Source of the DNA: Comamonadaceae bacterium
GTDB lineage: Bacteria; Pseudomonadota; Gammaproteobacteria; Burkholderiales; Burkholderiaceae_C
Length of the DNA stretch: 64,000 nucleotides
Assembly (NCBI GenBank): GCA_947450645.1
Contig: CANFWH010000002.1
Coordinates: forward strand, 62,001-126,000
Direction of reading: 5' to 3'
Under the pieces are notes generated by a model. It had not been told where the DNA came from, searched no databases, and saw nothing but the letters and a program-made list of their open reading frames with translations. Positions 20,145 through 33,019 of this stretch are shown piece by piece (position 1 is the stretch's first letter; every line of letters begins with the position of its first letter). A program made the position numbers and the translations under genes.

Positions 20145-20948
20145 ATGATAACTGACATGAGCTCTGCCAATGCTATCGAATTTCAATCTGTTTCCAAACG
20201 CTTCGTCAACACTGCGCGCGGCACTGATGTACTCGCCGTCCGAGATGTGAGTTTTGCCATTGGGCGCGGCGAGGTTGTTTCCATTATTGGCCCTTCGGGC
20301 TGCGGCAAAAGTACACTGCTAAATATGGGCTCAGGCCTTGCCCCGCCTAGCTTGGGCGAGGTATACGTGGCAGGCGAACTCGTCATCCGCCCCAACCCAC
20401 GCGTCGCCTTCATGTTGCAAAAAGATTTGCTCATGCCTTGGCGAACGATTAACCAAAACATCGAATTTGGACTTGAAGTCAGGGACGTTGCCAAAGCCGA
20501 ACGGGTCGCCATCTCAAACAAACTGATCGCGCAGTGCCGTCTCACAGGATTTGGCGCAAGCTATCCGCATCAGTTATCAGGTGGGATGCGTCAGCGTGCA
20601 GCGCTGGCACGCACGCTGGCGGTCAACCCCGATGTGCTACTCATGGACGAGCCGTTCTCAGCCTTAGATGCACAAACCAAGATGATCCTTCAGCAGGATT
20701 TGGCACGTGCCGTCAAAGCTGAGAACAAAACTGTGCTCTTTATTACGCATGATTTAGTCGAAGCCGTTGCGCTATCCGATCGCATCTTGGTGATGAGCGA
20801 GCGCCCTGGCACCATCATCGACACCCTCACCGTTGATCTGCCTGAACGCGACAACCCCATGCAGCGCCGCAAGCATCCACGCGTGGGCGAGTTCGTCGGG
20901 CGCTTAATGGATTTACTCAAGTTAGATGAATCCACCACCGTGCATTAA
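20145..20948 (+). CDS. nitrate/sulfonate/taurine-type ABC transporter ATP-binding protein
   Basis: ATPase of the TauB/SsuB/NrtD class, 267 residues. Walker A is GPSGCGKST, the signature LSGGMRQRAALARTLA and Walker B VLLMDEPFSALDAQT, with the family's H-loop FITHDLVEAVALSDRI. The start is 20145, or 20157 if the second ATG is used; neither has a good ribosome site. It is the first gene of the long plus-strand catabolic cluster, with its binding protein and permease next. Confidence 0.9.
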   Translation: MITDMSSANAIEFQSVSKRFVNTARGTDVLAVRDVSFAIGRGEVVSIIGPSGCGKSTLLNMGSGLAPPSLGEVYVAGELVIRPNPRVAFMLQKDLLMPWRTINQNIEFGLEVRDVAKAERVAISNKLIAQCRLTGFGASYPHQLSGGMRQRAALARTLAVNPDVLLMDEPFSALDAQTKMILQQDLARAVKAENKTVLFITHDLVEAVALSDRILVMSERPGTIIDTLTVDLPERDNPMQRRKHPRVGEFVGRLMDLLKLDESTTVH

Positions 20949-20980
20949 ATTTTTATTGTTTTTACTAGGAGAACCTTTCC

Positions 20981-21976
20981 ATGATTCGCAGAAACTTCAA
21001 GCGTGTAGCCGTTGCTCTATCCATAAGCCTCTTGCTAGGTATCGCCGCGCAAAGCCACGCCCAGTCTGCCCCGCAAGAGATCACTTATCTACTGCCAGCG
21101 CCAAGCGTGCTTCCTGCCTTCGCTCCGTGGATGCTGGCGCAGGCCAAGGGTTATTACGCGGCTGAAGGCCTCAATGTCAAATTCGTTGCGGGACGCGGCG
21201 GCGTGGATGTGGCCAAGCAAGTAGGGGCTGGCAATGCAGTGATTGGCGGCGCGATTGGCGACACGCCCATCATCGCGCGCGCGCAAGGCATCCCTGTGAA
21301 GGCCGTTGCCGTGCTGGGTGCGGGATCGCTCATGCAACTCGTCACGCACAAAGACGCCAATATCCAAAGCCCGCGTGAGCTGCGCGGAAAAACCATTACG
21401 ACCATTGCCTATACCGACACAACCTATTACGCGCTCTTGGGCATGATGAGTAAATCGGGGCTAACCAAAAACGATGCCGACATCCAAGCCGCAGGGCCTG
21501 CGGGCGTATGGCAGCAGTTTGCCGCCAAAAAAGCTGTCGCCATGGCAGGCGTGCCCGATTGGACAGTAAGCGCCCAAGATGCGGGAGCTGTGGTTGATAT
21601 TTTGCCTGCTGACGTGTACTTTAAAAGCATGGCACAAGCGATTTTGGCAAGTGACGAGACGATTGCCAAAAACCCACAGCTGATTCAAAAACTGGTTCGC
21701 GCCACGCTCAAAGGCATGGCCGATATCATGAAAAATCCAAAAGCGGCCGCCGATGCGTATGTGGCGTTTGTGCCCGCGCACAAAGGCAAAGAAGACTACG
21801 TGCGCCGCGTGTTTGAGCAATACAACAAGTACGTTTATGCCAACCAAAAAGTATTAGGGCAAATGGATGAGGCGCGCCTAGCGGGGCTAGAAAAATTCTA
21901 TGTTGCAAACAGCATCGTGCCAAAAGCACTGCCAGTGAAGGACTACTACACCAATCAATTTGTGGGTGGCAAATAA
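20981..21976 (+). CDS. NMT1/TauA-like ABC transporter substrate-binding protein
   Basis: Periplasmic binding protein of the SsuA/THI5/NMT1 family, 331 residues, with a signal peptide (VAVALSISLLLGIAAQSHAQ). Typical segments are AQAKGYYAAEGLNVKFVAGRGGVDVAKQVGAGNAVIGGAIGDTPIIARAQGIPVKAVAVL. An AGGAGAACC ribosome site lies upstream. Members bind sulfonates, pyrimidine precursors, aromatic acids and similar compounds, so the ligand cannot be told from sequence. The context suggests it imports the substrate of the enzymes that follow. Confidence 0.9.
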   Translation: MIRRNFKRVAVALSISLLLGIAAQSHAQSAPQEITYLLPAPSVLPAFAPWMLAQAKGYYAAEGLNVKFVAGRGGVDVAKQVGAGNAVIGGAIGDTPIIARAQGIPVKAVAVLGAGSLMQLVTHKDANIQSPRELRGKTITTIAYTDTTYYALLGMMSKSGLTKNDADIQAAGPAGVWQQFAAKKAVAMAGVPDWTVSAQDAGAVVDILPADVYFKSMAQAILASDETIAKNPQLIQKLVRATLKGMADIMKNPKAAADAYVAFVPAHKGKEDYVRRVFEQYNKYVYANQKVLGQMDEARLAGLEKFYVANSIVPKALPVKDYYTNQFVGGK

Positions 21977-21985
21977 TTTTTAACG

Positions 21986-22753
21986 ATGTCTGAAAAACTA
22001 AAAACTTATCTCTGGTCGCTGCTCGTCCTCATCGTTTTCCTAGCGGTCTGGCAATGGCTGCCGCCTGCGCTTTCCATCCCTGAGTTCGTGCTGCCCAACC
22101 TCAGTAAAACATGGGGTGAGGGTGCCCGTGTTTGGGGTGCCGAGAACATGCTGTACCACGCGGGCATCACTTCGCTAGAAGTGGTGGTGGGATTCATTTT
22201 GGGCTCGCTACTTGGCGCAGCGATGGGTTATGCGCTGGGGCTCTCACCGCGTGTTGAAGCCGTCTTGTCTCCCTATTTATTGGCCTTACAGATTGCACCC
22301 AAAGTCGCTTTCGCGCCGCTGTTTGTCATGTGGCTGGGCTATACGGTCTATCCAAAAATTTTGGTCGCCATCCTCATCGTGTTTTTCCCTGTGCTCATCA
22401 ACGTGCTCTCGGCCATGCGCAATATGGACAACGACCTCACCAACTTGGCGCGTTCGTTTTCCGCCACGCGCAGCCAAATCTTTTGGAGCGTTGAAGTCCC
22501 CACCACCTTGCCCGCGCTGTTCTCTGGATTACGCATTGCCTCTACCCTTGCTGTCATTGGCGTAGTGGTCGGCGAACTGGTCGGCGGCAACATGGGGCTA
22601 GGTTATCTACTCGTCTTCTTTGAAGGCCAAGGCAATACCGCAGGCGTCTTCGTTGTCATTGCAGCCCTGACCGCTATTGGCATTGCCGCCTATTACGCAG
22701 TGGTGGCTGCGGAGCGTAAACTCTTACATTACTTGCCGAGTCAGTCGACCTGA
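21986..22753 (+). CDS. SsuC/TauC-type ABC transporter permease
   Basis: Inner-membrane permease of 255 residues with about six membrane segments. The cytoplasmic EAA loop is near NLARSFSATRSQIFWSVEVPTTLPALFSGLRIA, and PKVAFAPLFVMWLGYTVYPKI is the family signature. It starts 9 bp after the binding-protein stop and ends 8 bp before the SDR gene, so transporter and enzymes look like one operon. Confidence 0.9.
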   Translation: MSEKLKTYLWSLLVLIVFLAVWQWLPPALSIPEFVLPNLSKTWGEGARVWGAENMLYHAGITSLEVVVGFILGSLLGAAMGYALGLSPRVEAVLSPYLLALQIAPKVAFAPLFVMWLGYTVYPKILVAILIVFFPVLINVLSAMRNMDNDLTNLARSFSATRSQIFWSVEVPTTLPALFSGLRIASTLAVIGVVVGELVGGNMGLGYLLVFFEGQGNTAGVFVVIAALTAIGIAAYYAVVAAERKLLHYLPSQST

Positions 22754-22761
22754 TACTCGAT

Positions 22762-23529
22762 ATGAACATGCTCACCAACCACCGCATCCTCATCACAGGC
22801 GCAGCAAGGGGTCTGGGCGAAGCCTTTGCCTATGCTGCTTTGCAAGCAGGTGGGCGCGTGGTACTCACCGATATTTTGGACGAGCGCGGCGCCGCATTAG
22901 CGATTGAATTAAACGCCAAGTTTGAAGGACGTGCTAAGTACTTACACATGGACGTGAGCGATAGCGCGTCCGTCAATTCGGCGATGTCTGAAGCTACTCT
23001 ATGGCTCAGCGGATTGGATGGACTCGTTAACAATGCCGCTATTACCAACTCGGGAGGCAAGGCGATGGAGGCGATAAACGAGGACGTGTGGGACAAGGTG
23101 ATGGCAGTCAACGTTAAAGGAACTTGGCTTACGACTGTGGCTGCGAAGCCGCATCTAATAAGGGCTAGCGAGGAGCATGGTCTAGGGCGGATAGTGAACG
23201 TAGCCTCCGACACAGCGCTGTGGGGAGCGCCTCATTTGATGGCTTACGTGGCAAGCAAGGGCGCAATTGTGGCAATGACGCATGCCATGGCGCGTGAACT
23301 GGGCGAGCATGGCGTGACGGTGAACGCCATTGCGCCAGGACTCACTCTAGGCGAATCAACACAATACATTCCGGCGGCACGCCACGATCACTACAAAAAT
23401 GGACGCGCGATTAAGCGCGAGCAAACGGCGGATGACATCACAGCAGCCGTGCTGTTTTTGTTGTCGAAAGAGAGCGGCTACATCACGGGGCAGTTGCTTC
23501 CTGTGAATGGTGGTTTTGTGATGCATTAA
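22762..23529 (+). CDS. short-chain dehydrogenase/reductase
   Basis: Classical NAD(P)-dependent SDR of 255 residues. The Rossmann motif is ITGAARGLGEAFA, the adenine-ring motif DVSD, the NNAG-equivalent LVNNAAI, and the catalytic Ser-Tyr-Lys lies in NVASDTALWGAPHLMAYVASKG. The C-terminus is GYITGQLLPVNGGFVMH. An Asp (LTDILDERG) after beta-2 suggests NAD preference. The substrate is unknown; a ring-dihydrodiol or alcohol step is plausible in this cluster. About 22,960-23,280 uses codons (ATA, CTA, AGG, GGA) rarer in the neighbours. Confidence 0.9.
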   Translation: MNMLTNHRILITGAARGLGEAFAYAALQAGGRVVLTDILDERGAALAIELNAKFEGRAKYLHMDVSDSASVNSAMSEATLWLSGLDGLVNNAAITNSGGKAMEAINEDVWDKVMAVNVKGTWLTTVAAKPHLIRASEEHGLGRIVNVASDTALWGAPHLMAYVASKGAIVAMTHAMARELGEHGVTVNAIAPGLTLGESTQYIPAARHDHYKNGRAIKREQTADDITAAVLFLLSKESGYITGQLLPVNGGFVMH

Positions 23530-23541
23530 CGAAAGGTAAAA

Positions 23542-24054
23542 ATGGACAACACTCATTTTGAAGAGCAAATGACCAGCCGCGTGGCACGCTTTGCGACGCG
23601 GCAATACGACTGGGAGGCGCTGAAGTTTCAAGCCGACTTTGACCCGAAATACGCACGTGCGCAAATGCGTTACATGGGCACAGGCGGCACGGGCGTGGCA
23701 TCTGACAACAACACCGTGCCGGCAGAACACTTCACGTTTTCAACCATGGTGATCCCCAAGGGCAATGAAGGTCCAGCCCATATTCACCGTGACGTGGAAG
23801 AAATTTTCTTTATCCTTAAAGGCACGATGAAAGTGATTTGCGAGCTACGCGCCGAAGACGACATCACCGTGCTGGGTCGATGGGAATCGGTACTCACAGA
23901 GCGCGATCTTATTTCTGTGCCGCCAGGTGTGTATCGCGAAGAAATCAATATAGGAGACGAAGACGCGCTCATGTGCGTGATGCTAGGTTCGCCTGTGCCT
24001 GTGCGTCCGACCTATCCACCTGATTCGCCGCTAGCGAGAATTAAAAGAGATTGA
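23542..24054 (+). CDS. cupin-domain protein
   Basis: A 170-residue single-cupin protein. The first cupin motif is GPAHIHRDVEEIFFILKG (metal ligands His-x-His-x4-Glu), and the second is near DLISVPPGVYREEINIG, where the usual His is not obvious. The N-terminus (MDNTHFEEQMTSRVARFATRQYDWEALKFQADFDP) is not recognised. It could be a small metal-dependent oxygenase or isomerase acting on a pathway intermediate. It starts 12 bp after the SDR gene, and its stop is 14 bp before the next ATG. Confidence 0.82.
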   Translation: MDNTHFEEQMTSRVARFATRQYDWEALKFQADFDPKYARAQMRYMGTGGTGVASDNNTVPAEHFTFSTMVIPKGNEGPAHIHRDVEEIFFILKGTMKVICELRAEDDITVLGRWESVLTERDLISVPPGVYREEINIGDEDALMCVMLGSPVPVRPTYPPDSPLARIKRD

Positions 24055-24068
24055 GCGAGGCGAAAGTC

Positions 24069-26690
24069 ATGGGTCAAACCTTGCTTGAACGAGCGCTCTC
24101 GCTGCCATTGCAAACCATTCAAACAGGATCAGGGCGGCAGATTGAGTACCTCGATAGCGCCGCGCCGCGTATGGCAGTGGCACTAGCACAAGCCAAGCAG
24201 GATATGGCCTCGCAGCCTATTGTTACATCTACGGACGTTTATGTTTTGCTGCACGGCATTGGTTCTGGCGCGGCGAGCTGGGTGCTGCAACTAGACGCTG
24301 CCGTTCATGCAAACGGCGCACGCTTACTCGCTTGGAATGCCCCTGGCTACGGCAACAGCACGCCGCTCACAACCGACAAACCCATCGCCGCCGAATACGG
24401 ACGTGCCATGTGGGCCTGGTTGGACGCGCTGTTGCTGGATCCTGCGCGGAAAGTGCACATCATTGGACACTCGCTGGGCTGCTTGATGGCTGCTAGCGCC
24501 GCAGCCTTGAAGCCTACGCGGGTATTGACTTTGACGCTTCTCTCGCCCGCGCAAGGTTACGGCAATGCCACCGTAGAGATTCGCGATAAAAAGACCCATG
24601 ATCGATTAGATAACCTCGCCAAGCTAGGCGCAGCGGGGCTTGCCAAGGCACGCGGCGCGGCACTGCTGCGTGTTAGAGCCAGCGAACAAGAAAAAGAATT
24701 AGCGATTGACATCATGAGCCGCATCCACACACGCGGCTACACGCAGGCCACGCACATGCTGGCGTGGGCGGATATTCGCGCGAACTTGCGTGCTGTGCAA
24801 GTCCCTATCCATGTGGCCTGCGGAGCATTGGATACGATTACGCCGCCAGCAGGTGCGCGGCAGTTGGCGAATGATTTGAGTGTGCCCTATACCGAAATTG
24901 CGAATGCGGGGCATTTGCTAGCGATTGAAAATGTCGCAGCGGTAAATGAACTATTGGCATTCAGCCCCCTCTCTTCAAGCTCTATCCCGCAAGGGGAGAG
25001 AGGCCTAGTTACCGTCGGCGACCTCTGCGCCGAGTTCCTTGCTGCCATTGGCGTGCGCACCGCTTTTGGAGTCATCTCCATCCACAACATGCCGATCTTG
25101 GATGGCTTTCATACGCGTGGAAAAATTAGGTTTGTCTCCGCTCGCGGCGAAGCGGGCGCTTGCAATATGGCCGACGCTTATGCACGGGTGAATCAGCACT
25201 TGGGCGTGGTCGTCACCAGCACAGGCACAGGCGCGGGCAATGCCGCAGGTGCGATGGTCGAAGCGCTGACAGCGGGTACGCCGATGCTCCATTTGACGGG
25301 ACAAATTGAATCGCCCTATCTCGACCTCAATTTAGGTTTTATCCACGAAGCACAAGATCAACTTGGGATGCTGCGTGCTGTGGGCAAAGCCGCCTATCGC
25401 ATTAGCAAACCCGAGGAAGCGCTAGAAGTGCTACAACAAGCCGTCACCTTGGCCTTCACACCGCCTTGCGGCCCTGTGAGTATTGAGATTGCCATTGATG
25501 TGCAAAAAATGCAACTGGAACGACCTGCCGCCTTGCAAGCCATATCAGCATTGACTTTGCAGAGCCTCTTGCCTGCAGCCCAATTCCCATCTGGCTTGCA
25601 GCTCGATGCATTGGTGGAATTGCTCTTAAAGAGCAAACGTCCGCTGTTGTGGCTAGGCGGTGGTGCAAGGCAAGCGGGTGCAGCGGTCGATCGCTTAGTC
25701 AAGCTCGGATTTGGCGTCGTCACTTCCGTGCAAGGACGCGGCGTTGTGTCAGAGAATCACCCGCAAAGCATGGGTGCGTTCAATCTGCAAAAAGCAGCGC
25801 AAGATTTGTACGCGGTCTCGGATGCCATGCTGGTTGTGGGCTCGCGCTTGCGCAGCAACGAAACGCTGACCTACAAATTGCAATTACCCAAGAATCTTTA
25901 TCGCGTTGACGCAAACCCAAAGGCCTGCGATCAACACCCGTATCAAGCGCGGCAATTTATTTGCGCCGATGCCACGCTAACCTTGAATGCGTTAGCGGAC
26001 AGATTAGAGGATAAGACCGACATCGACAAGACGTGGACAGCGCAGATTCAAGCGGCGCGCGCGGCGGCTGAAGCCCAAGTGGACAGTGGCCTAGCAAGCT
26101 ATGTCACGCTTAAAAATGCGATGAAAGATTTAGTCGATGCAGCGACAAAACGTCATCCTGATTCGCCACCTGCGTGGGTGCGTGACATCACGCTATCCAA
26201 CACCATGTGGGGCAATCGCAGCGTCAATTTAACCAAGCCATGGCAAGGCGTGCATGCGCTGGGCGGCGGCATTGGCCAAGGCTTGCAAATGGCGATCGGA
26301 GCCTCCATCAACGGTACGCCTGCGGTCGCGCTGTGCGGCGACGGTGGCCTCATGCTGAACGTGGGCGAGCTAGCGTGCGCGGTGCAAGAGCGCGCGAGTC
26401 TCTTGCTCATCGTCATGAACGATCAGCGCTACGGCGTGATTAAAAACATCCAAGATGCAGACTACGGTTCGCGCCACGCGTATGTGGAATTGCATACGCC
26501 CAACTTCGCCATGCTGTGCGAAAGCATAGGCGTTCGGCATCATATTTTAAATGTGCCTGCGCAGTCAGAAGCCATACTGAATAAGGTTTGGCAGCAAGTG
26601 GAAGCTGGCAACGTCGTGATGGTGGAAGTCGATATGCAAGCCTGGGGCGAGTTCGCCGTCAAGTTTGCCGGGCCGCCGAGGAAGGTGTGA
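24069..26690 (+). CDS. fusion of alpha/beta-hydrolase and thiamine-diphosphate (acetolactate synthase-like) enzyme
   Basis: A single open frame of 873 residues carries two complete enzymes. Residues 1-297 are an alpha/beta-hydrolase: LLHGIGSGAASW oxyanion region, GHSLG with nucleophile Ser135, GALDTITPP (Asp) and NAGHLLAIE (His). Residues from about 315 on are a ThDP enzyme: FLAAIGVRTAFGVIS, the glutamate motif ARGEAGACNMADAYAR, a central Rossmann domain (RPLLWLGGGARQAGAAV) and the ThDP-Mg motif GDGGLMLNVGELACAV with the later asparagines in MNDQRYG. The linker (about residues 298-314) is encoded by a palindromic repeat-like sequence. The ATG at 24069 with GAGGCGAAAGTC is preferred over a TTG at 24051. 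The reaction is unknown: hydrolysis plus 2-oxoacid decarboxylation or carboligation is inferred. Confidence 0.88.
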   Translation: MGQTLLERALSLPLQTIQTGSGRQIEYLDSAAPRMAVALAQAKQDMASQPIVTSTDVYVLLHGIGSGAASWVLQLDAAVHANGARLLAWNAPGYGNSTPLTTDKPIAAEYGRAMWAWLDALLLDPARKVHIIGHSLGCLMAASAAALKPTRVLTLTLLSPAQGYGNATVEIRDKKTHDRLDNLAKLGAAGLAKARGAALLRVRASEQEKELAIDIMSRIHTRGYTQATHMLAWADIRANLRAVQVPIHVACGALDTITPPAGARQLANDLSVPYTEIANAGHLLAIENVAAVNELLAFSPLSSSSIPQGERGLVTVGDLCAEFLAAIGVRTAFGVISIHNMPILDGFHTRGKIRFVSARGEAGACNMADAYARVNQHLGVVVTSTGTGAGNAAGAMVEALTAGTPMLHLTGQIESPYLDLNLGFIHEAQDQLGMLRAVGKAAYRISKPEEALEVLQQAVTLAFTPPCGPVSIEIAIDVQKMQLERPAALQAISALTLQSLLPAAQFPSGLQLDALVELLLKSKRPLLWLGGGARQAGAAVDRLVKLGFGVVTSVQGRGVVSENHPQSMGAFNLQKAAQDLYAVSDAMLVVGSRLRSNETLTYKLQLPKNLYRVDANPKACDQHPYQARQFICADATLTLNALADRLEDKTDIDKTWTAQIQAARAAAEAQVDSGLASYVTLKNAMKDLVDAATKRHPDSPPAWVRDITLSNTMWGNRSVNLTKPWQGVHALGGGIGQGLQMAIGASINGTPAVALCGDGGLMLNVGELACAVQERASLLLIVMNDQRYGVIKNIQDADYGSRHAYVELHTPNFAMLCESIGVRHHILNVPAQSEAILNKVWQQVEAGNVVMVEVDMQAWGEFAVKFAGPPRKV
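24968..25003. repeat. REP-like palindrome inside the fused gene linker
   Basis: Outer arms CCTCTCT (24968-24974) and AGAGAGG (24997-25003) enclose CCC-GCAA-GGGG (24986-24996), with an 11-nt asymmetric insert on the left. The core CCCGCAAGGGGAGAG resembles a palindrome I recall as common between genes in Burkholderiales. Here it is translated in frame as the Ser/Pro-rich linker between the hydrolase and ThDP domains. Confidence 0.55.
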
Positions 26691-26726: not shown

Positions 26727-27494
26727 ATGAGTCAAGTTCTATCACACGCCCTCATCGGAACGGGGCCTGAAAAAGTCATTGTGATGGGAGGCTGGATGGG
26801 CGATCACACAGTCTTTGAACCCAGTTTTGTCTACCTCGACCAAGCCAAGTTTAGCTATTGCTTTGCTGACCCGCGAGGCTATGGCGGTTCACGCGCAATC
26901 GCTGGAAGGCACACCAATGCTGAGGTTGCGGGCGATGTCGTCGCGCTAGCCGATGCGCTGGGTTGGTCACGGTTTCATTTTGTTGGACATTCGATGATGG
27001 GCAAGGTCGCGCAATACCTGTGTTCGCATCATGGCGAACGACTCAAATGCGCGGTGGGTGTGACGCCCGTTCCCGCTATCGCTATCCCGTTTGACGAGGG
27101 CGGGCTGGCATTGTTTAGCACGGCGTGGGAAAAGCCAAAAAATCGCGGCGCAATTTGCATGATGAGCACCAGCAATCGACTCAGCAAAACTTGGGAGCAG
27201 CGCATGATCGCCGAATCGCTACTTACCACTAGGCCTGAGGCCTTCCGCGACTATTTCTATATGTGGCAAGCCGAAAACTTTGCCGACAAAATGATGGGCT
27301 GCGCCACACCTTTCCTAGCCATCACGGGCGAATTTGACCAAGGCGTGCCAACCGATGCAATCAAAGGCACCCTCATGAAATGGATGCCCAATGCCAAGTT
27401 ACACACCATCGCCAACGCCGGCCATTACCCCATGCAAGAAACACCGATTCACTTCGTGACAACAATTGAGGCGTTTATGGCGGAGCATGAATAG
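26727..27494 (+). CDS. alpha/beta-fold hydrolase
   Basis: A 255-residue hydrolase separate from the fused one. It has VIVMGGWMGDHTVF near the oxyanion position (in place of the usual HG), nucleophile motif GHSMMG, Asp in GEFDQGVPTD and His in NAGHYPMQETP. Its length and fold type are those of meta-cleavage-product or enol-lactone hydrolases. GGAG precedes the ATG in the 36-bp gap. The stop is immediately before the next ATG. It is a candidate ring-fission-product hydrolase. Confidence 0.87.
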   Translation: MSQVLSHALIGTGPEKVIVMGGWMGDHTVFEPSFVYLDQAKFSYCFADPRGYGGSRAIAGRHTNAEVAGDVVALADALGWSRFHFVGHSMMGKVAQYLCSHHGERLKCAVGVTPVPAIAIPFDEGGLALFSTAWEKPKNRGAICMMSTSNRLSKTWEQRMIAESLLTTRPEAFRDYFYMWQAENFADKMMGCATPFLAITGEFDQGVPTDAIKGTLMKWMPNAKLHTIANAGHYPMQETPIHFVTTIEAFMAEHE

Positions 27495-28292
27495 ATGCTA
27501 AACATCACCTTGGTCGGCTACGGCGCAATCGCCAAAGCCATCATCACCAGGCTGGCAAATCACGCCAAGCTTCGAATTACGCACGTCGTCGTTCGGGCGG
27601 GTAAAGTGACTAGCACGCAAGTCGAATTACAAAATCTATCGAACGGCTGTATCGCTGTAAGCCACGTCCCACAAGGCGCGGCGCTGGTACTCGAGTGCGC
27701 GGGGCACTCTGCCCTGCGCGAACACGTGATGCCTGCGCTAGCCCTGGGCGTGCCCTGCGGCATCGTGTCTATTGGTGCATTGTCCGAAACGGGTCTCGTG
27801 GAAGCCTTATCCCATGCGGCTTCCCAAGGAGGTACGCAGGTTCATTTGCTCAGCGGTGCGATTGGTGCAATTGATGCGCTGGCCTCTGCAAAGCTTGCTG
27901 GACTTACATCTGTGACTTACACGGGACGCAAACCGCCGCACGGTTGGAAAGGCTCTCCTGCTGAAGTTGTTTGTGATTTAAGCACCATCACACAACCCAC
28001 GATCCTCTTGCAAGCCACAGCCCGTGAGGCTTCGCGCCAGTATCCAAAAAACGCCAATGTCGCCGCGACGGTTTCGCTGGCAGGACTTGGGCTCGATCAC
28101 ACGCAGGTGACTTTGATTGCCGACCCTACGGTTAGCGAGAACATTCACGAAGTAGAAGCACACGGTGCATTTGGTAGTTTCAAGCTGGAAATGCGCGGTA
28201 AACCGCTTGCCGAAAATCCCAAAACGTCCATGCTGACGGTACTGTCTGCGCTTCGGTTTTTGGAAAATCAAGTGAATGCAATCACGATATAA
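27495..28292 (+). CDS. aspartate dehydrogenase-like NAD(P)-dependent oxidoreductase
   Basis: A 265-residue protein of the aspartate dehydrogenase (NadX-like) family. The N-terminal Rossmann motif is VGYGAIAKAI. The middle contains LLSGAIGAIDALASAKLAGLTSVTYTGRKPPHGW, and the C-terminal catalytic domain has the family close GAFGSFKLEMRGKPLAENPKTSMLTVLSALR. In this cluster a role in an imine/amine step of catabolism is as likely as NAD synthesis. It abuts the hydrolase gene with no gap. Confidence 0.85.
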   Translation: MLNITLVGYGAIAKAIITRLANHAKLRITHVVVRAGKVTSTQVELQNLSNGCIAVSHVPQGAALVLECAGHSALREHVMPALALGVPCGIVSIGALSETGLVEALSHAASQGGTQVHLLSGAIGAIDALASAKLAGLTSVTYTGRKPPHGWKGSPAEVVCDLSTITQPTILLQATAREASRQYPKNANVAATVSLAGLGLDHTQVTLIADPTVSENIHEVEAHGAFGSFKLEMRGKPLAENPKTSMLTVLSALRFLENQVNAITI

Positions 28293-28302
28293 CGATCACG
28301 AT

Positions 28303-29805
28303 ATGAACCAACCCGAACATCTGCAAACCTTAATAGCAGGGCAATGGCGCGACGCATCAGGCTTGCTCTACTCGACCGAATATCCATTCGATAGCTCGGT
28401 CGTTGCAACATTGCACGCGGCGACGGTAGATGATGTTGATGTTGCGGTTCGCGCCGCTGAAGCAGCACGCTTGCAGAGCGCATGGGCGGGGCTGTTGCCA
28501 CATCAGCGCGCCGCCTTCCTGCACAAAATTGCCGCTGGCATTCGCGCTCGTGCAGAAGAACTCGCGCAGTTGCAAATGCTAGATAACGGCAAACCGATTC
28601 TTGAGTGTCGAGGCTTGGTGGCCAGCGCTGCGGGCACGTTCCAATACTTCGCCGCTGTGTGCGAGACGTTTGAAGATGCCGTCACACCGCCGCGCGGCGA
28701 GTTCATGTCCATCAGCATGCATGAGCCGCTGGGCGTGGTGGGTGCGATTACGCCGTGGAATTCGCCAATTGCTTCAGAGGCGCAAAAGCTCGCGCCAGCA
28801 CTAGCGGCGGGCTGCGCTGTCGTCATCAAACCCGCTGAAATCACGCCGCGTATGGCGATTGAATTGGCACGAATCATCGACGCTGCAGGCGTTGGCATGG
28901 GTGCTGGCGGCGCAGATATTCCAAAGGCTTTAGTCAGCGTGCTGCCTGGCAAGGGCAGCGTGGTCGGCGATGCGCTCGTGCGGCATCTGCTCGTCAAACG
29001 AATTGCGTTTACGGGTGGGACAACCGTTGGCAAAGGCATTGCCAAATTGGCAGCAGAAAAGCTGATGCCCGTGTCGTTAGAGCTAGGCGGCAAATCGCCC
29101 ACGATTGTGTGCGCCGATGCGGACTTAGATCACGCCGTTGCTGGCGTGCTCTACGGCATTTTTAGCTCTTCGGGTGAGAGCTGCATTGCAGGCTCGCGCT
29201 GCTTTGTTCATGCCAGCGTTTATGACGCATTCAAAGTGCGATTGGTGGCAGGCGCACAAGCGCTCAGGGTTGGAGACCCCAGCAGTGAGTCCACACAAAT
29301 GGGGCCGCTGATTAGCAGCTCGCACCGTGCTGGGATTGAGCGTTATGTCGCCATGGGATTAGCGGAGAGCGGCAAGCTGCTCTGCGGCGGGGCACGTCCA
29401 GAAAGGCTTGCGGAGCAAGGTTATTTTTATGAACCGACTATTTTTGAAGGTCTCGCCAACACCGCACAGATGTGCCGAGAAGAAATTTTTGGCCCCGTGT
29501 TAGCACTGATTCCCTACTCGGATGATGCCGATTTAGTCCAGCAGTGCAACGACAACGAATACGGACTTGCGAGCGGTATTTGGACGAAGGATTATCAGCA
29601 CGCGCTCAAGCTGGGTAAGGCTTTGCAAACGGGCACGGTGTGGATCAACACCTATAAAGTGTTCAGCATTGCGACGGCATTTGGTGGCGTTAAAAACAGT
29701 GGTATGGGGCGCGAAAAAGGCTATGCGTCCATCATGGAATACATGACGCAAAAAAGTTTTTATTGGGGCTTGAGTGAACGGCCAAACCCATGGAGCACAA
29801 CATGA
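28303..29805 (+). CDS. NAD(P)-dependent aldehyde dehydrogenase
   Basis: Aldehyde dehydrogenase superfamily, about 500 residues from MNQPEHLQTLIAGQWRDASG. Motifs are PWNSPI, the glutamate motif ELGGKSP, the catalytic Cys in SSGESCIAGSR and the C-terminal GVKNSGMGREKGYASIMEYMTQKS. The frame is open from 28276, but the ATG at 28303 fits the family start. Its stop overlaps the next start (ATGA). It probably oxidises the aldehyde released by the ThDP decarboxylase or hydrolase to an acid; the substrate is unknown. Confidence 0.92.
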   Translation: MNQPEHLQTLIAGQWRDASGLLYSTEYPFDSSVVATLHAATVDDVDVAVRAAEAARLQSAWAGLLPHQRAAFLHKIAAGIRARAEELAQLQMLDNGKPILECRGLVASAAGTFQYFAAVCETFEDAVTPPRGEFMSISMHEPLGVVGAITPWNSPIASEAQKLAPALAAGCAVVIKPAEITPRMAIELARIIDAAGVGMGAGGADIPKALVSVLPGKGSVVGDALVRHLLVKRIAFTGGTTVGKGIAKLAAEKLMPVSLELGGKSPTIVCADADLDHAVAGVLYGIFSSSGESCIAGSRCFVHASVYDAFKVRLVAGAQALRVGDPSSESTQMGPLISSSHRAGIERYVAMGLAESGKLLCGGARPERLAEQGYFYEPTIFEGLANTAQMCREEIFGPVLALIPYSDDADLVQQCNDNEYGLASGIWTKDYQHALKLGKALQTGTVWINTYKVFSIATAFGGVKNSGMGREKGYASIMEYMTQKSFYWGLSERPNPWSTT

Positions 29806-30725
29806 TTGAAGGTATCGACAGCATTACGTATTCCACCGACGGAACGGCTGAGAACTGGGCTTTGTCCAAAAAATTCTTTTTGGATTGGGGCTTAACGCTC
29901 ATCCAAGAATCTAATAACGAAGTCGTATTTGAAACTTTGAACGGTTCGCATGTGCGCGTGCTTGCGCCCGATCATCCATCACTAGCGGGCACTGCCCCGA
30001 TGGAAGCGGGAGCCACGTTGCGCGAAGTGGTGTGGGGCGTGACTAATGCCAATTTGCTCGCAACCTTACCTGCGCAAAACCTTGATCCGCATGGCCTGCG
30101 CGTGAGATTCCAACTCAGTCAAAAACGCGCCCTTAACTTTCAAGGCTCGCCCAGCAACGCGTGGGGTGATGTGCAGCGTGTGGATGCGCCATCACCTGTG
30201 TATGAACGCGCCGTGCCAATTGAAATTGGGCACGTGGTTTTGTTTACCAATTGTCTGCCTGATGCGGTGGCGTTTTACGAGCAACTTGGCTTTACAGTGA
30301 GCGACCAATATCCGAATCGCGGCGTCTTTTTACGCTGCTCCAAAACGGGTGGACATCACGATTTATTTTTGCTGCAAGTGCCAAACAAACCTAAAGGCAT
30401 CAACCACGTGGCGTTTACCGTGCGCGATATTCACGAAGTATTTGGTGGCGGTCTTGCCATGAGCCGCGCGGGTTGGAAGACGCAGCTCGGCCCAGGTCGT
30501 CACCCGATTTCGTCGGCATATTTTTGGTACTTTGAATGCCCCGTGGGCGGCCTCATTGAATACAACGCGGACGAAGATCATCTCACTGAAGCTTGGCAAG
30601 CACGCGAATTTGAACCCAGCCCGACGCGCTTTGCGGAATGGGCGATTGATGGCGGCTTGGATGGCTACACGCGCCGCCAACCAAATGCAGAAGCGGGCGG
30701 CAAATTCTTAACGGAAAAAAGATAA
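29802..30725 (+). CDS. two-domain VOC protein, type-I extradiol dioxygenase-like
   Basis: A 307-residue protein of two vicinal-oxygen-chelate modules (about 1-130 and 138-300). The second module has the iron triad of type-I extradiol dioxygenases: His144 (GHVVLFTN), His202 (NHVAFTVRD) and Glu253 (GLIEYNAD). This supports ring cleavage of a catechol-like or hydroxylated heterocyclic intermediate. The ATG at 29802 has GGAG seven bases upstream and overlaps the dehydrogenase stop, so they are coupled. Confidence 0.85.
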   Translation: MIEGIDSITYSTDGTAENWALSKKFFLDWGLTLIQESNNEVVFETLNGSHVRVLAPDHPSLAGTAPMEAGATLREVVWGVTNANLLATLPAQNLDPHGLRVRFQLSQKRALNFQGSPSNAWGDVQRVDAPSPVYERAVPIEIGHVVLFTNCLPDAVAFYEQLGFTVSDQYPNRGVFLRCSKTGGHHDLFLLQVPNKPKGINHVAFTVRDIHEVFGGGLAMSRAGWKTQLGPGRHPISSAYFWYFECPVGGLIEYNADEDHLTEAWQAREFEPSPTRFAEWAIDGGLDGYTRRQPNAEAGGKFLTEKR

Positions 30726-30732
30726 AAGCGAC

Positions 30733-31716
30733 ATGATGAAATACAAATCAGCACTCGTGCAAGCCTTATGTGTATTGGCTTGCGGGCTAGTTTCGTTGCC
30801 TGGCCAGGCACAAAATGCAGCATCCGATAGCGGCTATCGCATTGTCTCGCCCTTCCCTGCGGGCGGCCCCGTGGACGGCCTCGCTCGTATTTTGGCGACA
30901 GGTTTATCCGAGAAATATAAGCAAGCCGCCATCGTAGAAAACTTGGTGGGCGCTGCTGGCAACATTGGCATGGACAAAGTGAAACGCGCCGCACCTGATG
31001 GTCGCACGCTGCTGGTCATTCCTGCGGGCAACCTCACCATCAATCCAACTTTGATGGCGAATTTTCCATTCAATATCGCGGAAGATTTTGTGCCCATCGC
31101 CATGCTCGCCAAAGCGCCGAATGTGCTGGTGGCTGGCGCACAAGTTCCAATCAGCAATGCGCGTGAGCTGATTGCGCTTGCCAAGGCCAAGCCTGGCACA
31201 CTGTCGTTTGCGTCGCCTGGTGTGGGCAGCGGACTCCACTTGGCGGGCGAGCTCTTCAATGCACAAGCGGGCACGGACTTGCTGCACATCCCGTACAAAG
31301 GCACGCCGCCTGCTATCAACGATTTGCTCGGCGGCGCTGTGCCACTCATGTTTAGCAATTTGCCGACCGTCTTGCCACACATCCAAAGCGGAAAACTCAA
31401 AGCGATTGGCATCACTGACAACGTGCGCTCGGACATTGCGCCTAACATCCCAACGCTTGCTGAGCAAGGCGTAAGCGGTGTGGTCGTCACCTCATGGTAC
31501 GCCCTTCTCGCGCCGCGCGGAACGCCGCCAGCCGTGGCTTCCCAGCTAGCTAAGGATGTGAAAGAGATTTTGAATCGTCCCGCGATTCGCGAGCAACTAA
31601 AGGCACAAGCGCTCACGGTCTGGACGATGCAGCCCGATGAATTGCGTGCCCATATTGCAGCAGAGACGGCAAGCTGGGCACGCATTATCAAAGCCAAAAA
31701 TATCAAAGCAGAATGA
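30733..31716 (+). CDS. Bug/TctC-family periplasmic binding protein
   Basis: Tripartite tricarboxylate transporter receptor of the Bug family, 327 residues. It has a signal peptide (ALVQALCVLACGLVSLPGQAQ) and the signatures YRIVSPFPAGGPVDGLARILA, NLVGAAGNIGMDKVKRAAPDGRTLL and LLHIPYKGTPPAINDLLGGAVPLMF. No TctA/TctB membrane partners lie in the window, which is usual for Bug proteins. It may sense or deliver the pathway substrate alongside the ABC importer at the head of the cluster. Confidence 0.9.
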   Translation: MMKYKSALVQALCVLACGLVSLPGQAQNAASDSGYRIVSPFPAGGPVDGLARILATGLSEKYKQAAIVENLVGAAGNIGMDKVKRAAPDGRTLLVIPAGNLTINPTLMANFPFNIAEDFVPIAMLAKAPNVLVAGAQVPISNARELIALAKAKPGTLSFASPGVGSGLHLAGELFNAQAGTDLLHIPYKGTPPAINDLLGGAVPLMFSNLPTVLPHIQSGKLKAIGITDNVRSDIAPNIPTLAEQGVSGVVVTSWYALLAPRGTPPAVASQLAKDVKEILNRPAIREQLKAQALTVWTMQPDELRAHIAAETASWARIIKAKNIKAE

Positions 31717-31735
31717 ATCAAAACGGAGTCATGTC

Positions 31736-33019
31736 ATGAATAGATTTTTAAACCCACACCAAGCACGCCGTCGTGCGCCAACGTCCTTTGAAGACTTGCT
31801 GGGCGATGCCATCGAGCGCGGCTTTGCCGCAGGGCATTGGGAGCTGAATGCGCTAGTCGATTATTTAAACGTCTCTGGCTCGCAGGCCATATCAGGCAAG
31901 CCTTGGACGAGCGAGTCTTTTGCGGGCTATATGGAGCAAGGGCTGCGGGACGATGCCCATAAAAATATCGCCACGCCCTATCTTGCTCCCGCCTTGCCGC
32001 CTGCACCGCCCAAGCACCTCGATCCAAAATCCGTAGAAGCGGTTTTGCAGCAAGGACTCGCAAATCTTTGGTATCCAATTTGCCCATCTGATTTCATCAC
32101 CGATAAGCCGCAGGCCTTACGCCGCTTGGGTTTGCGACTAGCCGTTTGGCGCGATGGTCAAGGAAACGTTCATGCGCTAGAAGACCATTGCCCGCACCGA
32201 GGTGCGCCGCTGTCGCAGGGAGTAAACCTCGGCGACCGCTTGGCGTGCCCCTATCATGGTGTGGAAGTGCGCTGCGATGGCATGGTGACCAAGGTACCAG
32301 CCAGCCCAGGTTGTCCGCTAGAAAACAAACGCGCAACCCAATCTTTTCATATTCAAGAAGTCGCTGGTGCAGTGTGGCTATACAACAGTGCCGACCACTT
32401 GGAAGCCCCACCACCATTGGTCTTGCCGCCAGAGCTGACGGACGACGACACCTTTGGCCGATTCATGTGCTATGCCGAGTGGAAGGGTGACTATCGCTAC
32501 GTGATCGATAACGTACTCGACCCCATGCACGGTACGTTTTTGCACAAACAGTCACACTCGATGAGCGAGGGCGACGTGCACGCCAAGTTTGACATTAGGG
32601 AGACCGAGCACGGCTTTGTGTTTGAAAAAGCAGGTCAACGCGACGTGAACTTCGACTGGACCGAATGGGCGGACACGGGCACGCATTGGATGCGGTTAGA
32701 GATTCCATATCCCAAGACAGGCGGCCCTGGCGGCAGCTTCATCATCATTGGTAGCTATACGCCGATTACGCCGACGTTATCCGCCGTCTTCTTTTGGCGC
32801 GTGCGCCGCGTGCAAGGCTGGCAGCGCCATGTGTGGCAGTTCCTGTATCGCAACAGGCTAGAAGCGCGACACTGGACGGTGCTAGAGCAAGACCGCGTGA
32901 TGATGGAAGCAATGGAGCCTGACGCCAACCAGCGTGAGCAACTCTACGCGCACGATGCAGGCGTGGTGCGCATTAGGCGTATCATGCAAAACGCGGCGAA
33001 AAAACAAATAGCCGCATAA
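31736..33019 (+). CDS. Rieske ring-hydroxylating oxygenase with N-terminal recombinase-like HTH module
   Basis: A 427-residue protein with two parts. Residues 1-75 (PTSFEDLLGDAIERGFAAGH, then LNALVDYLNVSG and SGKPWTSESFAGYMEQG) resemble the recombinase-type helix-turn-helix found elsewhere as a small separate protein; a Pro-Ala linker follows. Residues from about 105 are a phthalate/vanillate-type oxygenase. The Rieske cluster ligands are C152-P-H154 and C171-P-Y-H174, and the mononuclear iron motif is DNVLDPMHGTFLH. The ATG at 31736 follows a GGAG. It probably hydroxylates or O-demethylates the aromatic substrate; the small ferredoxin at 19.8 kb is a possible donor. Confidence 0.88.
   Translation: MNRFLNPHQARRRAPTSFEDLLGDAIERGFAAGHWELNALVDYLNVSGSQAISGKPWTSESFAGYMEQGLRDDAHKNIATPYLAPALPPAPPKHLDPKSVEAVLQQGLANLWYPICPSDFITDKPQALRRLGLRLAVWRDGQGNVHALEDHCPHRGAPLSQGVNLGDRLACPYHGVEVRCDGMVTKVPASPGCPLENKRATQSFHIQEVAGAVWLYNSADHLEAPPPLVLPPELTDDDTFGRFMCYAEWKGDYRYVIDNVLDPMHGTFLHKQSHSMSEGDVHAKFDIRETEHGFVFEKAGQRDVNFDWTEWADTGTHWMRLEIPYPKTGGPGGSFIIIGSYTPITPTLSAVFFWRVRRVQGWQRHVWQFLYRNRLEARHWTVLEQDRVMMEAMEPDANQREQLYAHDAGVVRIRRIMQNAAKKQIAA

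Follow-up and report, generated by a model that had tools for sequence, protein, structure and literature searches.

A hydrolase and a thiamine-diphosphate enzyme fused in a genus of small-genome Burkholderiales, with a joint that looks like a palindromic repeat

How do two enzymes that relatives encode as separate genes come to be one chain, and what does the chain do? This question is raised by a gene of a Comamonadaceae bacterium (assembly GCA_947450645.1, contig CANFWH010000002.1), which we analysed within a stretch of 64,000 nucleotides, hereafter the window. The gene, 24069-26690 (+), is a single uninterrupted reading frame of 873 amino acids, and its product consists of an alpha/beta-hydrolase half, a linker (about residues 299-312) and a complete thiamine-diphosphate (ThDP) enzyme. 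Along this chain, Pfam placed Abhydrolase_1 at residues 59-288 and TPP_enzyme_N, M and C at residues 315-432, 513-642 and 711-853. The ThDP half belongs to the NCBIfam family PRK07064/NF005470, with 740.9 bits over residues 314-872 against a curated cut-off of 495. In the hydrolase half we found GHS(135)LG, D255 and H282, and the serine, aspartate and histidine are invariant in all 25 rows of the hydrolase alignment. A glutamate and a GDG...N motif are general to ThDP enzymes. The ThDP half has RGE(361), GDG at 757-759 and N784, and the corresponding positions of alignment A1 (E48, G444-D445-G446 and N471) do not vary in any of its 11 rows. A preliminary description of this DNA had claimed a one-chain fusion with complete motifs in both halves, and the open frame, the domain assignments and the motif check all uphold it.

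Structure prediction of the 873-residue chain agreed with this layout. AlphaFold2, run with a 24-row alignment, returned two confident domains (mean pLDDT 84.9 and pTM 0.66 for the whole chain) and a stretch between them, residues 299-310, with pLDDT below 50; residues 1-299 alone reached a mean pLDDT of 94.6. The linker had been named as the place where a stop or frameshift could undo the fusion. We looked for an in-frame stop at 24,960-25,010 and found none, and two other genomes of the genus are likewise fused. The genome is a draft of 76 contigs, which would leave room for an assembly or sequencing artefact, but the recurrence of the fusion in two other genomes with different linkers makes an artefact hardly credible. 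We conclude that the fusion is real, neither a sequencing error nor a product of chance.

We then asked how widely the fused form is distributed. The window's own genome (G000) and four further genomes of the same genus (G001-G004) measure 2.1-2.6 Mb. The fusion is present in three of the five, the window's, G004 (854 residues) and G002 (860 residues), and every carrier among the five has the fused form; G001 and G003 (78% complete) gave no match to the gene at E 1e-60. Named genomes were scanned with the ThDP half as query, and the counts rest on the best 80 loci. Hydrolase and ThDP enzyme are encoded separately in 68 of these, with an IclR gene intervening in 67 (L122 is the exception). A hydrolase was not seen in 11 loci, three of which extend no more than about 1 kb upstream, and the single fused locus, L046, is the same contig as in G002. 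The record of L046 is labelled 'Cytophagales bacterium isolate MAG19', a label that looks wrong. L066 and L067 are without a detectable hydrolase and have the cupin gene directly 5' of the ThDP gene; the neighbourhood of L067 additionally holds a LigB-type protein and a FAD monooxygenase. A further set of 11 scored loci comprised eight separate (L034-L040 and L042), two fused (L032 and L033) and one without a hydrolase (L041), leaving outside the score three more (L043-L045) that had been picked for a hydrolase match alone. The two sets overlap, since L033, L035 and L036 are repeats of L046, L051 and L060.

Across the family, PRK07064 is present in 37 of 399 genomes (38 matches). Among these 37, the only frame of at least 840 residues outside the three congeners is in G085 (944 residues), yet its two genes are separate. 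Of 72,556 records in a plasmid collection, 18 matched at E 1e-80 and none reached 80% query coverage. No fusion outside the genus was found in the named loci, family genomes or plasmid records examined. Among what was searched, the fusion thus appears confined to one genus of small-genome Burkholderiales, and the earlier judgement that it is unusual holds: it occurs in three of five genus genomes and at no other examined locus. The same description had reasoned that homologs always encoded as two genes would speak against a fusion. Almost every relative seen does have two genes; in the window and its two congeners, however, the fusion is genuine.

Table 1. Features of the fused gene and its surroundings, in window coordinates
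Feature	Position	Strand	Basis
ABC transporter: ATPase, NMT1-type binding protein, permease	20145..22753	+	Pfam
SDR oxidoreductase	22762..23529	+	Pfam
Cupin protein	23542..24054	+	Pfam Cupin_2; G004 counterpart 92% identical
Alpha/beta-hydrolase half (aa 1-298)	24069..24962	+	Pfam Abhydrolase_1; motifs Ser135/Asp255/His282; AlphaFold2
REP-like palindrome, read in-frame as linker (about aa 299-312)	24963..25003	+	nhmmer; pLDDT
ThDP enzyme half, PRK07064/NF005470 (aa 314-873 and stop)	25008..26690	+	NCBIfam; Pfam; motifs Glu361, GDG 757-759, Asn784
Second alpha/beta-hydrolase, PcaD-like, score below that family's cut-off	26727..27494	+	Pfam/NCBIfam
Aspartate-dehydrogenase-family protein	27495..28292	+	NCBIfam PRK13303.1-2, 342 bits vs cut-off 226
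Aldehyde dehydrogenase	28276..29805	+	Pfam Aldedh
VOC/extradiol-dioxygenase-like protein	29790..30725	+	Pfam Glyoxalase
TctC-type solute-binding protein	30733..31716	+	Pfam
HTH_62 domain fused to Rieske oxygenase alpha subunit	31637..33019	+	Pfam HTH_62, Rieske, VanA_C

The fused gene lies in an operon (Table 1) whose usual order elsewhere is cupin, hydrolase, IclR, (SDR), ThDP enzyme and aspartate dehydrogenase, followed by aldehyde dehydrogenase. G140 lacks an IclR gene at this place: its hydrolase gene overlaps the ThDP gene by ATGA, and the latter is truncated where the contig ends. The ABC transporter also lies upstream of the SDR gene in G023, G047, G062, G085 and G081; it was not seen in the operon stretches from G002 and G004. 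The PcaD-like hydrolase gene, which in the window stands between the fused gene and the aspartate dehydrogenase gene, is absent from that position in both congeners, and its first 58 residues found matches in 6 of 99 other genomes at no more than 50% identity. The junction of cupin and hydrolase is a 14-base gap in the window, whereas the two genes overlap in G002 and G004. The VOC protein has weak NCBIfam matches to HpaD and to catechol 2,3-dioxygenase, both scoring well under the cut-off, and a search of it for an extradiol signature pattern gave no match.

The operon holds a second fusion. The HTH_62-Rieske protein, whose real start may lie downstream of 31637, contains the Rieske ligand motif. 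HTH_62 and Rieske genes are close together in 33 of 88 loci and fused in three of these (L032, L033 and L046, the last two being one contig), with the window as an additional case; among the 88 loci tested, this fusion too occurs only in this genus. Judged by its gene content, the operon looks like one of ring catabolism. It is widespread in Burkholderiales and Pseudomonas, and a similar cluster lies around PA3502-PA3514 in Pseudomonas aeruginosa. Literature searches turned up no assigned substrate, and in the open-licence PMC literature we found no paper on such a gene cluster or on a hydrolase-ThDP fusion; an aspartate dehydrogenase paper does not use the terms "gene cluster" or "operon" (PMC5554190).

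What joins the two halves? We built an nhmmer model from 20 copies of the CCCTCTCC...GCAAGGGGAGAGGG palindrome, all from other genomes. Its top-scoring site in the window is 24963-25003 (20.4 bits, E 2e-5), the linker itself; the runner-up scored 2.4 bits, and the best score across 30 windows shuffled in 2-base blocks was 6.0 bits. The copies had been selected by their core, and the independent part of the match is the left arm. The 19-base core, with at most one mismatch, is present in 12 of 100 genomes. The window's own genome is one of them and has a single copy, and copy numbers in G008, G112 and G117 are 10, 12 and 7. Read backwards, the core pattern has one match across all 100 genomes. 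We also considered a selected RNA structure in the linker and rejected it, as its folding stability is not unusual (z -0.08 vs shuffles). REP repeats are associated with the RAYT transposase. On these matches, the window's joint looks like a palindromic DNA repeat translated as protein.

A rival reading is that this one long frame yields two polypeptides, through internal initiation or through cleavage by a protease within the linker. The repeat contains GGGGAGAGAGG, which is purine-rich and resembles a ribosome-binding site, and candidate in-frame starts exist in all three genes: TTG at residues 283 and 296 in the window, ATG at residue 284 in G004, and GTG at residues 247 and 273 (273 being the ThDP domain start) and TTG at residue 250 in G002. 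However, neither the window gene nor G002 has an ATG between the halves, and from the repeat to the ThDP domain the window has no ATG, GTG or TTG at all, the next being a GTG at residue 329, within the domain. Internal starts would also leave unexplained the total lack of stops in three species. Reinitiation at the joint is unlikely, and we consider two polypeptides from this frame, by whichever route, very improbable.

The linkers of the window, G004 and G002 have no sequence in common. In G004 a different repeat makes up the linker (C3:20468-20590), present there as an inverted pair whose members score 76.5 and 48.5 bits. With model R1 of this repeat at E 0.01 we obtained 29 matches in G000, 28 in G004, 12 in G001, 4 in G002 and 2 in G003, none of them inside the window; among 35 genomes outside the genus, five had one marginal match each and 30 had none. 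The core pattern of the repeat has 16 matches in G000 and 14 in G004, and the backward pattern has none in either and one in G002. Its first hairpin carries compensatory changes, double-sided in 4 of 13 predicted pairs. The repeat has the features of the REP type: a short palindrome, many copies, and often inverted pairs. In the G002 linker no repeat was recognised by eye, and model R1 did not list it. A third palindrome, with 110 matches in the G002 genome, is read in-frame in the ThDP part of the G002 protein, where it separates the central domain from the C-terminal one.

The G004 repeat is also found in-frame in other genes of the genus. We inspected its context in 17 stretches, covering 19 of 30 core matches; nine of these stretches have a frame that stays open over the entire 1.4 kb, and in-frame placements were taken from 12 longer stretches. 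UvrA has three copies in a 1902-residue frame (G000) and one in an 1868-residue frame (G004). Further in-frame copies, from stretches L149-L152 of G004 and L153 of G000, lie in RecG, in a molybdopterin oxidoreductase resembling formate dehydrogenase and nitrate reductase, and, in both genomes and in opposite orientations, in an OHCU decarboxylase/amidohydrolase fusion (L151 in G004, L153 in G000); an RNB-domain protein has an in-frame partial copy. The two long UvrA frames, L154 2986-8691 (1902 residues, G000 C2) and L148 910-6513 (1868 residues, G004 C3), are each matched by UvrA models at three places, a double-UvrA-like arrangement. These data do not distinguish a repeat that caused the fusion from one that entered an already tolerant linker afterwards, although for the G004 repeat a later guest is favoured because the same repeat is read in-frame in UvrA and RecG.

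The two halves of the fused genes do not appear to tell the same history. The ThDP halves of the three genes form a single clade with support of 100 (FastTree). In a hydrolase tree of 35 rows chosen from 79, the window's half clusters with L084, L088 and G067 (support 100/99), whereas those of G004 and G002 cluster with L085 and L087 (99/92); another hydrolase tree likewise sets the window's half apart (98). Comparing the window with G004 gives, for the hydrolase half, dN 0.55 and a dS of 3.5 that is near saturation; the values are dN 0.059 and dS 0.70 in the ThDP half, and dN 0.057-0.09 and dS 0.87-1.4 in the cupin, SDR and aldehyde dehydrogenase genes. Between G004 and G002 the hydrolase values are dN 0.224 and dS 1.08. 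Synonymous divergence is saturated only in the hydrolase half among the operon genes compared. The far greater divergence of the window's hydrolase half, the trees and the differing cupin junction suggest that there were two fusions, or that the hydrolase was replaced. Against this, an AU test on the same 35 rows did not reject the three hydrolases as one clade (lnL 13.5 lower, p 0.163), and the window's hydrolase branch is long.

These observations invite a broader idea, that intergenic palindromic repeats served the genus as ready-made in-frame joints, with more than one fusion (one in the window, one in the ancestor of G002 and G004) drawing on different hydrolase lineages and, at least in the window and G004, using repeats as linkers. 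We hold this to be doubtful. If true, repeats that elsewhere lie between genes would turn into peptide linkers within newly formed multidomain enzymes.

We next considered the chemistry. Against solved sequences, the hydrolase family matches HsaD-type C-C hydrolases best (E 3.6e-24), an esterase following closely (2.1e-23). A comparison by fold ranks the first C-C hydrolase only at 37, after an unassigned hydrolase, haloperoxidases, esterases and a PHB depolymerase. The meta-cleavage-product C-C hydrolases have a Ser-Asp-His triad, as the window does (S135, D255 and H282), together with a GNSMG-type motif (Asn before the nucleophile) and a Trp after the catalytic His, where the window has H134-S135 and H282-L283. 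We therefore rejected a bona fide C-C hydrolase, because the signature residues are missing and the sequence and fold matches are mixed. The ThDP half has its closest counterparts in acetohydroxyacid synthases, JanthE and BbmA.

We think it probable that the gene encodes one bifunctional chain, derived from two formerly separate enzymes of one catabolic operon and serving consecutive steps. The ancestral order would have been cupin, hydrolase, IclR, ThDP enzyme, aspartate dehydrogenase, aldehyde dehydrogenase, VOC and Rieske, all separate. In the genus the hydrolase frame runs through a linker, in the window a repeat-like palindrome, into the ThDP frame; no IclR gene lies between the two, and it was presumably lost from that place. 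The hydrolase half may open or cleave a ring-fission product or an ester, the tethered ThDP domain would decarboxylate or carboligate the released 2-oxo acid, and aldehyde dehydrogenase would oxidise the aldehyde; the tether would set a 1:1 ratio of the two activities. The preliminary description had proposed this order of hydrolysis, ThDP step and aldehyde dehydrogenase. It is plausible because the operon has Rieske-oxygenase and extradiol-like genes, and it fits the conservation of the operon, the chemistry being read from sequence. Channelling, also proposed there, gained no supporting result: the linker is predicted to be disordered and differs among three species, and separate genes are usual. 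A specialised channel is made less likely by the lack of common linker sequence, and the relatives that keep the genes separate indicate that tethering is not needed.

The fusion could also be neutral: a small genome, losing genes and becoming more compact, would have joined co-transcribed genes, leaving two independent enzymes on a string. The HTH_62-Rieske fusion of the same operon, likewise seen only in this genus among the loci tested, the unrelated linkers and predicted disorder of the window's, the repeats read in-frame within several proteins and the genome sizes of 2.1-2.6 Mb all accord with such a history. Retention in three species despite dS of 0.70-0.93 in the ThDP half argues the other way, and we regard neutrality as quite possible though not the better explanation. 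The bifunctional chain remains the reading we prefer. In either case the locus is a good one for studying how enzyme genes fuse, being a tractable and apparently recent fusion. Unfused genes exist alongside adjacent but separate ones (G140) and three fused versions whose joints differ, so the benefit of tethering is directly testable. The most interesting part is the repeat-like linker, as palindromic repeats read in-frame are suggested as a concrete source of inter-domain linkers. Repeats inside genes, uvrA included, are already known (PMC3733652). New here are the match of the window's linker to a repeat family, the repeat-pair linker in G004 and the palindrome inside the ThDP part of G002.

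Among known systems, the closest neighbourhood is that of Caballeronia sp. NK8 plasmid pNK84. Its annotation runs from ferredoxin, an HTH protein, Rieske alpha subunit, SDR, cupin, hydrolase and IclR to SDR, ThDP enzyme, aspartate dehydrogenase, aldehyde dehydrogenase, VOC and FAD oxidoreductase, and its ThDP enzyme, of PRK07064/NF005470, and most of these neighbours resemble the window's. On the plasmid, however, the hydrolase, IclR, SDR and ThDP genes are separate, whereas the window has one chain with neither IclR nor a second SDR between. HsaD and BphD, which are meta-cleavage-product C-C hydrolases, share the triad, and the HsaD type is the best profile match; the window's hydrolase differs in that GHSLG stands in place of a GNSMG-type motif and the His is not followed by Trp, and other folds rank higher.

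MenD is a ThDP enzyme and MenH an alpha/beta-hydrolase. PHYLLO, a menF-menD-menC-menH fusion of algae and plants described as derived from a bacterial operon, thus also has a ThDP enzyme and an alpha/beta-hydrolase within one chain (PMC2412073). It differs in its enzyme families, in that the ThDP part precedes the hydrolase part, in having at least four modules and in being a nuclear gene. The window's ThDP half is not MenD: PRK07064 lies far above its cut-off, and MenD is absent among the best 25 of the 66 families listed. The lumichrome cluster of Nocardioides simplex, described as combining ThDP decarboxylation, Rieske and extradiol dioxygenases, a cupin and ring catabolism, shares ThDP enzyme, Rieske, extradiol-type and cupin genes with the window (PMC12746152). 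That description gives the cluster a two-subunit LumK/LumL, a P450 and a xanthine-oxidase-like enzyme of its own, none of which we identified in the window's operon, and a lumichrome/riboflavin pathway was rejected for the window on this difference in composition. Finally, intragenic REP and Rickettsia palindromic elements are, like the window's linker, palindromic repeats read in-frame in proteins, many of them DNA-repair proteins and UvrA among them (PMC3733652). Unlike the intragenic elements as described there, the window's repeat joins two enzymes that are separate elsewhere.
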